Both the position numbers and the translations under genes were made by a program. A stretch of 20,339 nt of DNA from a virus, in IMG/VR virus record IMGVR_UViG_3300032893_000306, positions 1 through 20,339 of that record. One strand, written 5' to 3'. The notes beneath the pieces were generated by a model, which had not been told where the DNA came from, did not search any database, and saw nothing but the letters and a program-made list of their open reading frames with translations. Below are positions 1,751-5,927 of this stretch, one piece after another; positions within the stretch are counted from its first letter, which is position 1; every line of letters starts with the position of its first letter.

Positions 1751-1963
1751 ATGATGAATGTTTGTGATTTCATTTACATCGAACGAGAACATTATGGAAT
1801 TGAAGACGGCGAGGGCCAGGACGGCGAGCAGTCGGCGCAGAATGCAACAGGGCGCACAGGGGAACGGCCCAGTACCCGAACGGCGCAGAGCGACTCTGAT
1901 ATCCTCCCTGTTGAGGGTAAATCAGCGTTCCTGGACCCCGGCCGCCTTTTGAGGGGGGGATGA
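1751..1963 (+). CDS. Hypothetical acidic small protein
   Basis: The 70-residue frame begins MMNVCDFIYIEREHYG, is rich in Glu, Asp, Gln and Ser, and ends in an ATGA overlap (1960-1963) with the replication gene. This overlap is why it is preferred over the competing frame 1758-1952, whose product is implausibly Arg/Ala/Ser-rich. GAGGG precedes the ATG closely. There is no recognisable domain. Its position just upstream of the initiator gene suggests an early-operon accessory protein, but this is inference. Confidence 0.45.
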   Translation: MMNVCDFIYIEREHYGIEDGEGQDGEQSAQNATGRTGERPSTRTAQSDSDILPVEGKSAFLDPGRLLRGG

Positions 1964-2676
1964 GCGCAGACCTGCGTATTGATTTTGGATTCTTTGACCA
2001 CCGCAAGACTAAGCGGCTTATCTCTCAGCTTGGGCTGCAAGGCGCGTGGTCCCTTCTGAAGCTATGGCGCAAGGCAGCGGAGACCAGGCCGAAGGGCAAA
2101 CTTTACGGCATGGATGAGACAGACATAGCCCTCGACGCGGAATGGCCCGGTGATCCTTTGGAGTTCTGCAAAACACTCCTTGATCTACATTGGTTGGATA
2201 GAAACGGAGATAACGTCTATGAGGTCCATGATTGGCAGGAACATCAGCCTTGGATATTCGGAAGTGAGGAGCGGTCAGTACAGGCCCGAGAAGCTGCAAA
2301 AATTATGTGGGATAAAAAGCGGTCTAAAAGCGCAAAGAAAGCGGAGAAGAAGCGCACCGCAAGCGCACCGCTTACAGACAGCAATGCCCCATCTCCTTTC
2401 CTTTCCTCTCCTATCCCTTCCATCTCCATAAAAGAAAGAAAAGATATACCACCCGATTTTGAGAGTGTAAAAGCGTACTGCGAACAACGACACAACACAA
2501 TCAACGCTCAGAAGTTTATCGACCACTATTCTGCAAGAGGATGGATGATCGGCAAGAACAAAATGAAAGACTGGCAGGCAGCCATCAGAACGTGGGAAGA
2601 GAACGAAAAGGAAAACCCAATCGAAAAAACAAAGCCCAAAGAAAAATGGGAGCTCGCCTTGGAGGGCAAGATATGA
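1960..2676 (+). CDS. Phage replication initiator (DnaD-like, replisome organizer)
   Basis: This 238-residue protein has two visible parts. Residues 1-95 form a winged-helix-like domain (IDFGFFDHRKTKRLI, GLQGAWSLLKLWRKAAE, LLDLHWLD) and end in the DWQEHQPW...EERSVQAREAAKIMW segment typical of phage replication initiators. After a low-complexity linker at about 120-165 (Lys, Ser, Pro), residues 166-213 carry the DnaD-type tail FESVKAYCEQR...FIDHYSARGW followed by KMKDWQAAIRTW. Such proteins bind the phage origin and recruit the host helicase loader or helicase. The DNA encoding the linker holds direct repeats and a pyrimidine tract that could be the origin. The gene overlaps both neighbours by ATGA. 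The class call is strong; the exact family is not certain. Confidence 0.8.
   Translation: MSADLRIDFGFFDHRKTKRLISQLGLQGAWSLLKLWRKAAETRPKGKLYGMDETDIALDAEWPGDPLEFCKTLLDLHWLDRNGDNVYEVHDWQEHQPWIFGSEERSVQAREAAKIMWDKKRSKSAKKAEKKRTASAPLTDSNAPSPFLSSPIPSISIKERKDIPPDFESVKAYCEQRHNTINAQKFIDHYSARGWMIGKNKMKDWQAAIRTWEENEKENPIEKTKPKEKWELALEGKI
2351..2427 (+). repeat. Repeats and polypyrimidine tract inside the initiator gene
   Basis: AGCGCACCGC occurs at 2351-2360 and again at 2362-2371 (11-bp period). A 41-nt tract at 2387-2427 follows with only three purines. The segment lies in the interdomain linker of the initiator gene, where lambdoid phages carry their origin inside gene O. It is a possible origin. 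Confidence 0.35.
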
Positions 2677-3149
2677 ACGTCTCGTCTGATATGAAGAACC
2701 AATCCCATATCGTTCATTGGCAGGAGATTGTCAAAGACGATTTCATGGATGAGTTTGTCAAAGTAGTGAAGGCCTCGCATTACACCGGTCGAGCGGGTTT
2801 TCTCAGCACCGAAGCGGCCGTTAAGAAGATCATGGACGGCATGAAGCCCGAGAATAAAGACAAGTATTTGGATATTCGGTTTTCCATGAGGGAGTGCGGC
2901 TATTACTACGACAAAGCAGGGATTTGGCATGTCGTGGGATGGACTGACGATACATGGATTGACGACAAGGGCAACTTGAAATTCTACACGACGGCGCCGG
3001 GGCCAATGGTGTTTATCTCTATGGCGTCTTTCATGGAAGCCAAGGAAGAGCATAAGAGAGACACGGGGAAGGTTCCCTTGCCGCCACCAGGCCCGCTCGC
3101 GCCATTACTCGACGACTTCATACATGAGCCCGACGCCTGGGAATCGTAG
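2673..3149 (+). CDS. Hypothetical protein
   Basis: The start at 2673 overlaps the initiator stop (ATGA) and has GGAGGGC upstream. An earlier in-frame ATG at 2541 lies inside the previous gene and is rejected. The 158-residue product is soluble, mixed in charge and rich in aromatic residues in its middle (GYYYDKAGIWHVVGWTDDTW). It has a Pro-rich C-terminal stretch (KVPLPPPGPLAPLL). The slot after a replication initiator is often held by a helicase loader, but no Walker motif is present, so that role is not supported. I do not recognise the family. Confidence 0.75.
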   Translation: MNVSSDMKNQSHIVHWQEIVKDDFMDEFVKVVKASHYTGRAGFLSTEAAVKKIMDGMKPENKDKYLDIRFSMRECGYYYDKAGIWHVVGWTDDTWIDDKGNLKFYTTAPGPMVFISMASFMEAKEEHKRDTGKVPLPPPGPLAPLLDDFIHEPDAWES

Positions 3150-3165
3150 GGAAAGGAGGGAGGGG

Positions 3166-3885
3166 ATGGCTCTGATTGAACACGATCTATTCCGAGGCCG
3201 CATAGACAAGGTCCAGATCGCCATCGACCGGATGAAAATGTTTGAGCCGCCGGAAGGGTACTACCTAGCCTATTCAGGCGGCAAAGATTCAGACACGATC
3301 TTGGCACTTGCGAAGATGGCCGGTGTGAAATTCGACGCGCACTACAATCGGGCTGTAGAACCCCCAGAAGTGTACTGGCACGTCAAGAAGCACCCAGAAG
3401 TGAAAATCCATCTGCCCAAAGAAACCATGTGGCAACTGATAAGACGTAAGCATTGCCCGCCGCTAAGGCAAGCCCGTTTTTGTTGTGAGTTTCTTAAGGA
3501 ATCCTCTGGAGGAGGGAGATTTGTTCTTACGGGTGTAAGAGCTGAAGAAAGCGTTATGAGAGCAAAGAGAAAGATGGTTGATAACTGCCTCAAAGATGGA
3601 GGCAAGCGGTATCTACACCCTATCATAGATTGGTCTGCCAAGGATGTATGGCAATTCTTAAGACAGAACAATGTCGAATACTGCCGTCTGTATGACGAAG
3701 GCTTCAAGCGAATAGGGTGTGTGCTATGTCCCTGTTCTTCTCGTCGGGATATTGAGGCTCTTAGATGGCCCAAAATACGAGAGGCTTATAAAAGGGCAAT
3801 GGAAAGAGGCGGATGTAAGCTCACGATTGAACGGTGGCTTTCGACATACAAAGGGAAGACAGAGGATGGAGGATTGTTCACTTAG
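3166..3885 (+). CDS. PP-loop ATPase, phosphoadenosine phosphosulfate reductase-like
   Basis: This 239-residue protein follows a strong AAAGGAGG site. The PP-loop SGGKDSDT (residues 37-44) binds ATP in the PAPS reductase/adenylyl-transferring superfamily. Cys106-Cys107 and C185-VL-C188 reproduce the CC...CxxC spacing (about 77 residues) of [4Fe-4S] APS reductases and related phage proteins, so an iron-sulfur cluster is plausible. The C-terminal catalytic ECG(L/I)H of true PAPS/APS reductases is absent, with only a lone Cys217 in that area. It is therefore probably not a sulfate-assimilation enzyme. Related PP-loop proteins act in nucleotide or DNA/RNA sulfur modification, which would fit a phage early gene, but the substrate cannot be read from sequence. 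The in-frame ATG at 3124 lies inside the preceding gene and lacks a ribosome site. Confidence 0.85.
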   Translation: MALIEHDLFRGRIDKVQIAIDRMKMFEPPEGYYLAYSGGKDSDTILALAKMAGVKFDAHYNRAVEPPEVYWHVKKHPEVKIHLPKETMWQLIRRKHCPPLRQARFCCEFLKESSGGGRFVLTGVRAEESVMRAKRKMVDNCLKDGGKRYLHPIIDWSAKDVWQFLRQNNVEYCRLYDEGFKRIGCVLCPCSSRRDIEALRWPKIREAYKRAMERGGCKLTIERWLSTYKGKTEDGGLFT

Positions 3886-4046: not shown

Positions 4047-4100
4047 AAGGCAAAGGATGAGTAAGGCACGGGCATGGAAGCCCAAAGAGGAGGGTTGAGG

Positions 4101-4409
4101 GTGAAGCAATCCGACCGTGAGCCCAACATCACCACGAGGGGCGTGATTATCCACCTCCTGCGTATGTTGTGGCTTCACAGCCGGGAGCGGCGCGCAGCCC
4201 TCAAGCGGGACGATTACACGTGCCAGGGTTGCCACAGGAAGCAGAGCGCGGCCAAGGGGAAAGAGTTCAAGGTGGAGGTCCACCACTGTGCGGGAAGCAT
4301 CGATTGGGATGCCATCATAGAGTACATCCGGCGCAACCTGCTCGTGGATCATTCGAGGCTCGTCACGCTCTGCAAGGAATGCCACGATGAGGAAGAGAGA
4401 GAAGGCTGA
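4101..4409 (+). CDS. HNH endonuclease
   Basis: A GTG at 4101 with AGAGGAGGG at 4086-4094 (6-nt gap) is chosen as start; an ATG at 4074 in the same frame has no ribosome site. The 102-residue product carries zinc-binding C41-QG-C44 and C91-KE-C94-H95, with the catalytic His pair at 61-62 (VEVHH). The usual Asn before the last motif is replaced (DHSRLVTLC), as in other phage HNH proteins with the AKGKEFKVEVHH and IIEYIRRNLLVD segments. It is a probable nicking or cleaving DNA endonuclease. A 13-codon peptide (4057-4098, MSKARAWKPKEEG) ends just before the GTG and could be a translated leader. Confidence 0.8.
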   Translation: MKQSDREPNITTRGVIIHLLRMLWLHSRERRAALKRDDYTCQGCHRKQSAAKGKEFKVEVHHCAGSIDWDAIIEYIRRNLLVDHSRLVTLCKECHDEEEREG

Positions 4410-5232: not shown

Positions 5233-5715
5233 ATGCCGCCGTTAGCACTGCCCGTATGGCGTCCAAAGTCAGTATCGAGAGAAATTGAGGGAAGAATTGA
5301 TAAGGCCCTGGCGCTCAAGCTCCGAGTCGTCAACAAGCTTTCCTACGAGGAGATAGGTAGGCAATTCGGAGTATCCGCACAAGCCGTACATCAAGCACTG
5401 CGTAAGTTTACCGGCATTCTTGATGAACTACCAATCTGTTCTGTTTATGAGGATTCAAAGGCAGAAATGCTCAGTGCGGTAGAAATGAGGCTATTAGGGC
5501 TTCTGCTTGACCCTGACAAACTTAAAGAGGCGAGCCTGAACAATGTGGCCTATACGTTTCAGCAGGTATTCAATGCTAATCAGCTTAAACGAGGCCAAGC
5601 AACAGCAAATGTCAACCATAACGTCATTATCGATGACGGACACCGCCTTTCCGATGAGATCACCCGCCTCGAAGCCGAGCTGTCCAGGCTTCAGAACGAC
5701 TATGAAAGCCGCTAA
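5233..5715 (+). CDS. Helix-turn-helix protein, candidate small terminase
   Basis: The 160-residue protein has a clear helix-turn-helix at about 36-58 (LSYEEIGRQFGVSAQAVHQAL). A helical middle follows (EMLSAVEMRLLGLLLDPDKL...AYTFQQVF), then the QLKRGQAT motif and a C-terminal coiled-coil-like helix (EITRLEAELSRLQ). Phage proteins of this build often precede the large terminase and act as the small, DNA-recognising subunit. Here the large subunit lies 3.4 kb downstream, past a non-coding block. Small terminase is a candidate role; a transcription regulator of the late region is the main alternative. The ribosome site GAGGAG is about 11 nt from the ATG. Confidence 0.65.
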   Translation: MPPLALPVWRPKSVSREIEGRIDKALALKLRVVNKLSYEEIGRQFGVSAQAVHQALRKFTGILDELPICSVYEDSKAEMLSAVEMRLLGLLLDPDKLKEASLNNVAYTFQQVFNANQLKRGQATANVNHNVIIDDGHRLSDEITRLEAELSRLQNDYESR

Positions 5716-5927
5716 GAACAGCCAGATAATCACTGTAAACTGATACCCATCTGTAACTCATTGAAATCATTAGAGCACGTGGTTACATAATACAGCTTAT
5801 CTGAACCATACGCTTAGTAATAACGGTTTGATACTATGTCCCTGTAGGTGATTTGCCGACCCCCGTAGGGGGGGGGATGACACCCCTACCCCCTCCCATA
5901 GGTACACCTTCCCCTATCTGACTAAAA
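5716..5927 (+). other. Non-coding gap with GC hairpins
   Basis: No credible gene is present on either strand. A CCCCC-GTA-GGGGG hairpin (5860-5872) and an alternative pairing GTAGGGG/CCCCTAC (5865-5871 with 5883-5889) may close the early operon, although there is no T tract. The run of nine G (5868-5876) is a likely place for a sequencing length error. Possible weak promoter boxes near 5761 were not convincing. Confidence 0.5.

Follow-up and report, generated by a model that had tools for sequence, protein, structure and literature searches.

A viral protein family named PAPS reductase with an ATP-type PP-loop, a putative four-cysteine cluster site and no reductase tail

(P)APS reductases bind a sulfonucleotide and attack it with a tail cysteine, and PP-loops of the lysine-bearing SGGKDS type cleave ATP to give an adenylated substrate and pyrophosphate. 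Three-cysteine thiolases activate sulfur at a free iron; the tRNA thiolases use three cluster cysteines. In the available parts of the respective papers, the cluster of DndC is described as held by three cysteines (PMC10853773), the type-4 BREX PAPS reductase is grouped with the enzymes of phosphorothioation (PMC12839542), and CasCysH, a CysH-like protein of type IV-B CRISPR, is given a loop of the ATP-PPase type and no catalytic cysteine (PMC8175902), with the same loop argument as the one made below. The likeness of CasCysH to the viral protein considered here (loop type, missing catalytic cysteine) is taken from that published description; the annotations of three plasmid records out of 33 list no csf gene. 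The viral family itself is already known: it is catalogued in PHROGs (moron/AMG class) as phrog_424 and named 'phosphoadenosine phosphosulfate reductase'. The accessible text of PMC10848311 mentions a separate 'viral CysH branch', and that of PMC11437467 states that such phage proteins deserve investigation. In the text available to a literature search that left aside preprints and most subscription papers, there was no functional test of the viral family and no remark on a mismatch between its loop and its tail.

The window analysed here is the whole of a linear virus record of 20,339 bases; such records are often fragments. Features of the gene and of its surroundings are listed in Table 1. 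The motifs named in the original prediction were found in the translated ORF where it had placed them (S37-G-G-K-D-S-D-T44, C106-C107 and C185-V-L-C188), and the start codon is supported because AGGAGG lies six bases upstream of it.

Table 1. Coordinates of the gene, its motifs and the adjoining genes in the window
Feature	Position	Strand	Remarks
Replication initiation / DnaD-like protein	1960..2676	+	phrog_9474 8.6e-15; DnaD profile 3.2e-8
Protein of unknown function, directly upstream	2673..3149	+	ATG 2673 is our reading; longer ORF 2541-3149 has weak family matches only
Shine-Dalgarno-like AGGAGG	3154..3159	+	6 bases before ATG 3166, read from the sequence
Putative Fe-S PP-loop ATPase, viral phrog_424 family	3166..3885	+	239 aa + stop; annotated elsewhere as PAPS reductase
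PP-loop SGGKDSDT, residues 37-44	3274..3297	+	ATP-pyrophosphatase type, with lysine; SGGKDS in 99/99 rows
C106-C107, first half of presumed [4Fe-4S] site	3481..3486	+	99/99 rows; on CC of 2goy
GVRAEESVMR, residues 123-132, Arg-loop of the superfamily	3532..3561	+	Conserved in family rows
C141, viral-clade-specific cysteine, candidate catalytic thiol (inferred)	3586..3588	+	87/99 rows
C173 of YC-LY motif	3682..3684	+	88/99 rows; on C of human FAD synthase
C185-x-x-C188, second half of presumed [4Fe-4S] site	3718..3729	+	95/99 rows, others gaps; on GC-x-x-C of 2goy and 7lhr
HNH-endonuclease-like protein	4074..4409	+	phrog_8446 7.3e-8; 9 more HNH families at E < 0.005

Judged by profile scores, the family match of the window protein is not a chance one: PF01507 (PAPS_reduct, Pfam) matched at 6.7e-22 (78.8 bits vs the cut-off of 22.5) and phrog_424 at 2.2e-36. 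The BrxP profile in PADLOC matched at 4.3e-17, over profile positions 135-320 of 779 only, and the full-length BrxP architecture (~780 aa) is not found in the window protein, which has 239 aa. The curated NCBIfam models for APS/PAPS reductases all stayed under their cut-offs (53.1/235.3, 53.5/165.1 and 45/254.2 bits). The same was true of the NCBIfam models of DndC (TIGR03183, 18.5 vs 290.4 bits), TtcA (13.1 vs 272 bits) and TtuA (13.4 vs 450 bits); thus, the direct likeness to TtcA that had been raised with the original prediction was not borne out.

Searching viral contigs with an alignment gave at least 338 confirmed relatives, of which the best 80 were kept. The family alignment has 99 rows, i.e., 98 loci (88 non-redundant) and the window; an alignment of 83 rows is called A2 below. 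Of 50,697 phage records, tblastn matched 35 at an E of at most 1e-5, with Methanosarcina virus MetMV as the best (54.7%) and with an Altiarchaeum virus and Bacteroides phages among the others. By these matches the family is a large one, present in viruses of bacteria and archaea, and phrog_424 matched 83 of the 83 aligned members as well as the window protein; phrog_2302, which has the same name, also matched all 83 members of A2, more weakly.

SGGKDS and the CC pair are present in 99 of 99 rows, while C185 and C188 are present in 95, the remaining four having a gap; all these columns are invariant in A2. The Arg-loop is conserved to a similar degree (G123, S129 and R132 in 99/99 rows, R125 and E128 in 98/99). 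Two further cysteines, which the original prediction had not named, are C141 (87/99 rows) and C173 (88/99). We considered them as an obligate pair and dropped the idea: 75 of 87 rows have both, 12 have one and none has neither, a pattern compatible with chance.

The name of phrog_424 implies a reaction whose catalytic tail, ECGxH, occurs in 0 of the 99 rows, a few of which are cut at the C-terminus; the window protein has no ECG(L/I)H, as the original prediction states. The tails are partly unseen, since rows L009, L010, L011 and L015 hold just the N-terminal half of a split ORF and a few others stop at a contig end. A relaxed tail scan (C-x-x-H/S or EC-G/A) matched 4 of 94 rows, with ECGxH in none of them.

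The window copy departs from the family at several positions. It has R62 where 95/99 rows have T, E65 where 98/99 have D (BrxP, DndC and SspD regularly have E), RW where 85/99 have WW, and a shortened tail (residues 215-239). Considering R62, RW and the short tail, the window copy may be an altered, weakened or decaying enzyme. Orf84 of phage 186, a distant homolog of the family, is recorded as not essential. In the contigs of two records, those of loci L002 and L033 (G001 and G007), the family profile also matched weakly at another place (E 2.3e-8).

Some of the homologs have homopolymer tracts within the coding region. Over an alignment of 2,002 columns, the 2-kb stretches of L006 and L010 differ by a single gap and by no mismatch; the gap is located in a coding poly-G tract (8 vs 10), and one copy of the gene is open while the other is split. 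A pattern scan gave the shorter poly-G tract in three contigs and the longer tract in one; the contigs of this group are L006, L007, L008 and L010. L009 and L015, identical in DNA, are split at a G8 run, and L011 is split at an A9 run. Runs of G7 or longer were found in 14 of the 88 family genes compared to 13 of 515 other plus-strand ORFs with a length of 150 aa or more from those loci (p 3e-6), while 100 codon shuffles of the family genes gave a mean of 7.6 and a maximum of 13. Poly-G switching in homologs is possible, as is homopolymer sequencing error. The only run of G8 or longer in the window, at 5868-5876, is outside the gene.

The AlphaFold2 model built on A2 had pLDDT 94.8 and pTM 0.90, in agreement with the predicted PAPS-reductase-like fold. 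The VIA-align comparison, in which rows up to 1 Z apart were treated as tied, gave the PAPS domain of human FAD synthase (8rom, Z 16.5, rmsd 2.7, 155 aligned), M. tuberculosis APS reductase (7lhs, Z 16.3, rmsd 2.5, 173 aligned), the ATP sulfurylase CysD (1zun, Z 16.1, rmsd 2.5, 157 aligned) and P. aeruginosa APS reductase (2goy, Z 15.7, rmsd 3.1, 178 aligned), followed at a lower value by the tRNA thiolase TtuA (5b4e, Z 13.9, rmsd 4.7, 189 aligned). In the profile alignment with 2goy, the viral CC falls on CC and GCxxC on GCxxC, as would be expected of the cluster-type cysteines proposed in the original prediction; the GCxxC of 7lhr aligns as well. The PP-loop of 2goy has no lysine, unlike the viral SGGKDS, and 2goy and 7lhr presumably both carry the catalytic ECGxH tail.

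In phmmer, FAD synthase was the best single solved match (3.7e-7), over a segment with PIIDW...YC-LYDEG, and its PAPS domain shares with the viral protein the motif LDW...PYC-LYD-G in addition to the fold. These matches, together with the top Z value, would suit a pure AMP transferase acting on a nucleotide, a cofactor or a nucleic-acid end with no sulfur involved. Such an enzyme is rather unlikely, given that, in the alignments, FAD synthase lacks cysteines where the viral protein has CC and carries S in place of the first C of GCxxC (the second C lies beyond the aligned part), whereas the viral cysteines at these positions are invariant in A2.

For a comparison with cellular proteins, the family profile was run on 299 Bacillota genomes, the central genome G009, an already known carrier of the family, being included. 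A match at E 1e-12 was found in 55 of the 299 genomes, and the viral clade itself (E < 1e-100) in two. The next tier (30 loci were fetched) held 23 BrxP and BrxP-like proteins with E from 1e-33 to 5e-24 and lengths of 522-816 aa; below it came CysD (3e-22) and then the CysH proteins with ECGxH (1e-18, 2e-18). The two CysH proteins fetched (L216 and L217) have ECGxH, and the loop lysine is replaced by A or I. Conversely, SGGKDS, CC and GCxxC with no ECGxH were found in 23 of the 23 BrxP and BrxP-like proteins (the latter ~570 aa, PRK13795-like), a combination shared with the viral family, and a PADLOC scan of eight of the 23 gave BrxP as the best match for all eight. One BrxP was 30% identical to the viral protein over 184 aligned positions. 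The cellular proteins differ in having extra cysteine-rich parts and no C141, while the viral protein is a single domain.

The tree has 86 rows and is rooted at the midpoint only. Its viral rows number 46 (the window plus 45 of the 88 non-redundant loci) and were taken mostly by locus order and not at random, and the single IbrA-like row was left out. All 46 form one clade with support 100/100, which joins BrxP and the BrxP-like proteins at a weak 98/73, while DndC, SspD and CysH/CysD are on other branches. BrxP of type-4 BREX and the BrxP-like proteins may thus be the nearest cellular kin of the viral clade, a placement that we regard as weak.

The column of C107 has C in the viral, BrxP, BrxP-like, CysH and CysD rows and T in the DndC (4) and SspD (5) rows. 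In the same joint alignment, 43 of 46 viral rows carry the cysteine at 141, compared to 0 of the 40 others, 6 of which have a gap there; for C173, the counts are 42 of 46 viral rows and 1 of 40 others (5 gaps). As far as the alignment goes, the clade is one with four aligned cluster cysteines, like APS reductase and BrxP, compared to three in DndC and SspD. These two share SGGKDS and CxxC with the viral family; membership in either was ruled out by the cysteine set and the tree. The direct likeness to DndC that had been raised was not borne out on three counts: T at the position of the fourth cysteine, a score far below the cut-off, and the place in the tree. No dnd partner was present among the families found for 11 ORFs of the window, a record that is possibly a fragment.

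Could the protein be a viral thiolase of tRNA or another RNA, working in the mode of TtuA, TtcA or NcsA? The TtuA fold match and the shared SGGKDS loop and Fe-S site are consistent with such a role. Still, TtuA ranks after the reductase and FAD synthase folds, the TtcA and TtuA models score far below their cut-offs, and the viral site has four cluster cysteines, not three, so we regard an RNA thiolase as quite unlikely. Since the viral site has four cysteines, like the sites of APS reductase and BrxP, sulfur activation at a free iron would not fit readily.

The closeness of BrxP and the BrxP-like proteins would also accommodate a counter-defence decoy, i.e., a BrxP relative that jams type-4 BREX or phosphorothioation complexes. 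We consider a decoy very unlikely: the invariant PP-loop and cluster residues in A2 argue for catalysis, and the family is also present in viruses of archaea and of Bacteroides. An auxiliary metabolic gene for a true (P)APS reductase that raises host sulfate assimilation, for which the PF01507 match and the phrog_424 name speak, and to which genes so named are assigned as assimilatory sulfate reduction or host metabolism in the available parts of PMC10914622, PMC7785012, PMC11318856 and PMC8879888, is highly unlikely and was rejected on the tail (ECGxH in 0/99 rows), the loop (ATP-type in 99/99), the NCBIfam reductase scores far below cut-off and the position apart from CysH in the tree.

The enzyme class that is left is well supported: the window protein is very probably a viral ATP pyrophosphatase of the PP-loop type that stands alone, has the fold of the APS reductases and bears a [4Fe-4S] site of four cysteines, and not a reductase of sulfate assimilation. 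What it acts upon was approached through the gene neighbourhood. The replication gene expected next to it is there, a DnaD-like gene with both phrog_9474 and DnaD profile matches (Table 1), and a portal protein gene is located farther downstream than the HNH-like gene. Upstream of the structural genes, the window also codes at 5233-5715 for a sigma-region-4-like helix-turn-helix protein (25.4 bits vs the Pfam cut-off of 25.7), which at a guess is perhaps a terminase small subunit or a regulator.

Of the 88 non-redundant family loci, 28 have a DNA methyltransferase gene (N6/N4 or C5) no farther than 1.5 kb away, compared to 3 of 63 control loci anchored on SSB (p 2e-5); with the distance set to 6.5 kb, the counts are 42 of 88 and 12 of 63 (p 2e-4). 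The loci are phylogenetically non-independent, and the methyltransferase and radical-SAM profiles and the SSB seeds were all derived from the family's own loci. The controls were collected with an SSB alignment, as a single-protein search had given too few loci, and 63 of 80 SSB loci were kept after removal of four with a PAPS-reductase match and of near copies. In the same 88 and 63 loci, genes of DnaD, RusA and IstB had no excess near the family; therefore, the methyltransferase excess is not general to every early gene. DUF5131 alone was non-significant (9 of 88 vs 2 of 63).

Individual loci vary. In L002, whose protein is 58% identical to the window protein, a C5 methyltransferase gene, the family gene and a radical-SAM gene directly downstream stand in a row. 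Two DNA methyltransferase genes flank the family gene in phage NatCom_17901, one is near it in MetMV, and a Bacteroides plasmid has a cytosine methyltransferase gene three genes upstream. By contrast, none is annotated near the family gene in Dulem virus 33, an Altiarchaeum virus or one phage each of Bacteroides and Ruminococcus, and the profiles used found neither a methyltransferase nor a radical-SAM gene in the 20 kb of the window. L025 also codes, 2662 to 1412 bases ahead of the family gene, for another protein of the PAPS-reductase type, which is unlike the family protein (417 aa, FSAGKDST loop) and overlaps an ORF with a match to the N6/N4 methyltransferase profile; this arrangement, as we take it, recalls IbrA/IbrB pairs.

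A radical-SAM family of the phrog_9298 type was found within 6.5 kb in 12 of 88 family loci and in 0 of 63 SSB controls. In the reciprocal test, the family (>120 bits) was present in 7 of 74 non-redundant radical-SAM loci, or 3 of 70 when contigs that had supplied seeds were set aside (Fisher p 0.35 against the 1 of 63 entered for SSB loci, where the lone non-seed match had 41 bits), and the radical-SAM gene was dropped as a fixed partner because of this failure. Among the 74 radical-SAM-anchored loci, 67 of which have no family member, 24 had a methyltransferase gene within 1.5 kb, so methyltransferase closeness is not special to the viral PP-loop family. A fair reading is that the family gene lies in an accessory region rich in DNA-modification genes, with no fixed operon.

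The original prediction had proposed a role in nucleic-acid sulfur chemistry or nucleotide modification, with anti-restriction as a possible purpose. The nucleic-acid part became more plausible through the closeness to BrxP and the methyltransferase excess, although the profiles used found no methyltransferase gene in the window itself; sulfur transfer to DNA or tRNA and anti-restriction are still conjectural. We favor a nucleic-acid or nucleotide substrate because of the BrxP kinship and the genome position. Most likely, the protein is an adenylating Fe-S enzyme that depends on ATP and has nucleic acid or nucleotides as its substrate.

Starting from the motifs, the predicted fold, the clade and the neighbourhood statistics, which the analysis gives directly, we infer the following course, the use of ATP being read from the type of the PP-loop. 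The SGGKDS loop would bind ATP, not PAPS, and the release of pyrophosphate would leave an adenylated substrate. A transferred group might then be handled near the cluster, if that is occupied as presumed; the handling might fall to C141, the cysteine specific to the clade, which would be the first choice of thiol for a transfer of sulfur. The substrate would most likely be a nucleic acid of the virus or of its host, or else a nucleotide, in early or replicative infection, and the resulting modification could protect the virus from host DNA surveillance, at times together with DNA methyltransferases that the virus itself encodes. A four-cysteine cluster has no free iron site, unlike that of the three-cysteine DndC type, and this counts against the explanation. 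The same holds for the departures of the window copy from its family, for the methyltransferase results that speak against a specific link and for the non-essential Orf84. For the whole of it, an ATP-adenylating Fe-S enzyme that modifies nucleic acid or nucleotides and thereby helps the virus against host DNA surveillance, we would put the probability at roughly 0.4. A more specific version, in which a distinct viral Fe-S ATP-pyrophosphatase installs a sulfur- or adenylate-dependent protective mark on DNA or nucleotides, C141 replaces the tail, and the gene is poly-G-switched in some phages, appears doubtful.

With respect to novelty, the sequences point to a clade that combines an ATP-type loop, a putative four-cysteine site, no reductase tail and a cysteine of its own, and that appears separate from the CysH, DndC, SspD and BrxP rows with which it was compared. 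Viral genes named cysH or PAPS reductase have been taken as evidence of virus-driven sulfate assimilation, in the available portions of PMC10914622 and PMC7785012. If the clade consists of ATP-using Fe-S enzymes with no reductase tail, virome counts would need to be re-sorted by PP-loop and tail, with SGGKDS and no ECGxH on one side and no loop lysine with ECGxH on the other. If this is true, a common viral enzyme would be left with no known substrate, and K40, C141 and the cluster cysteines would make its function directly testable.
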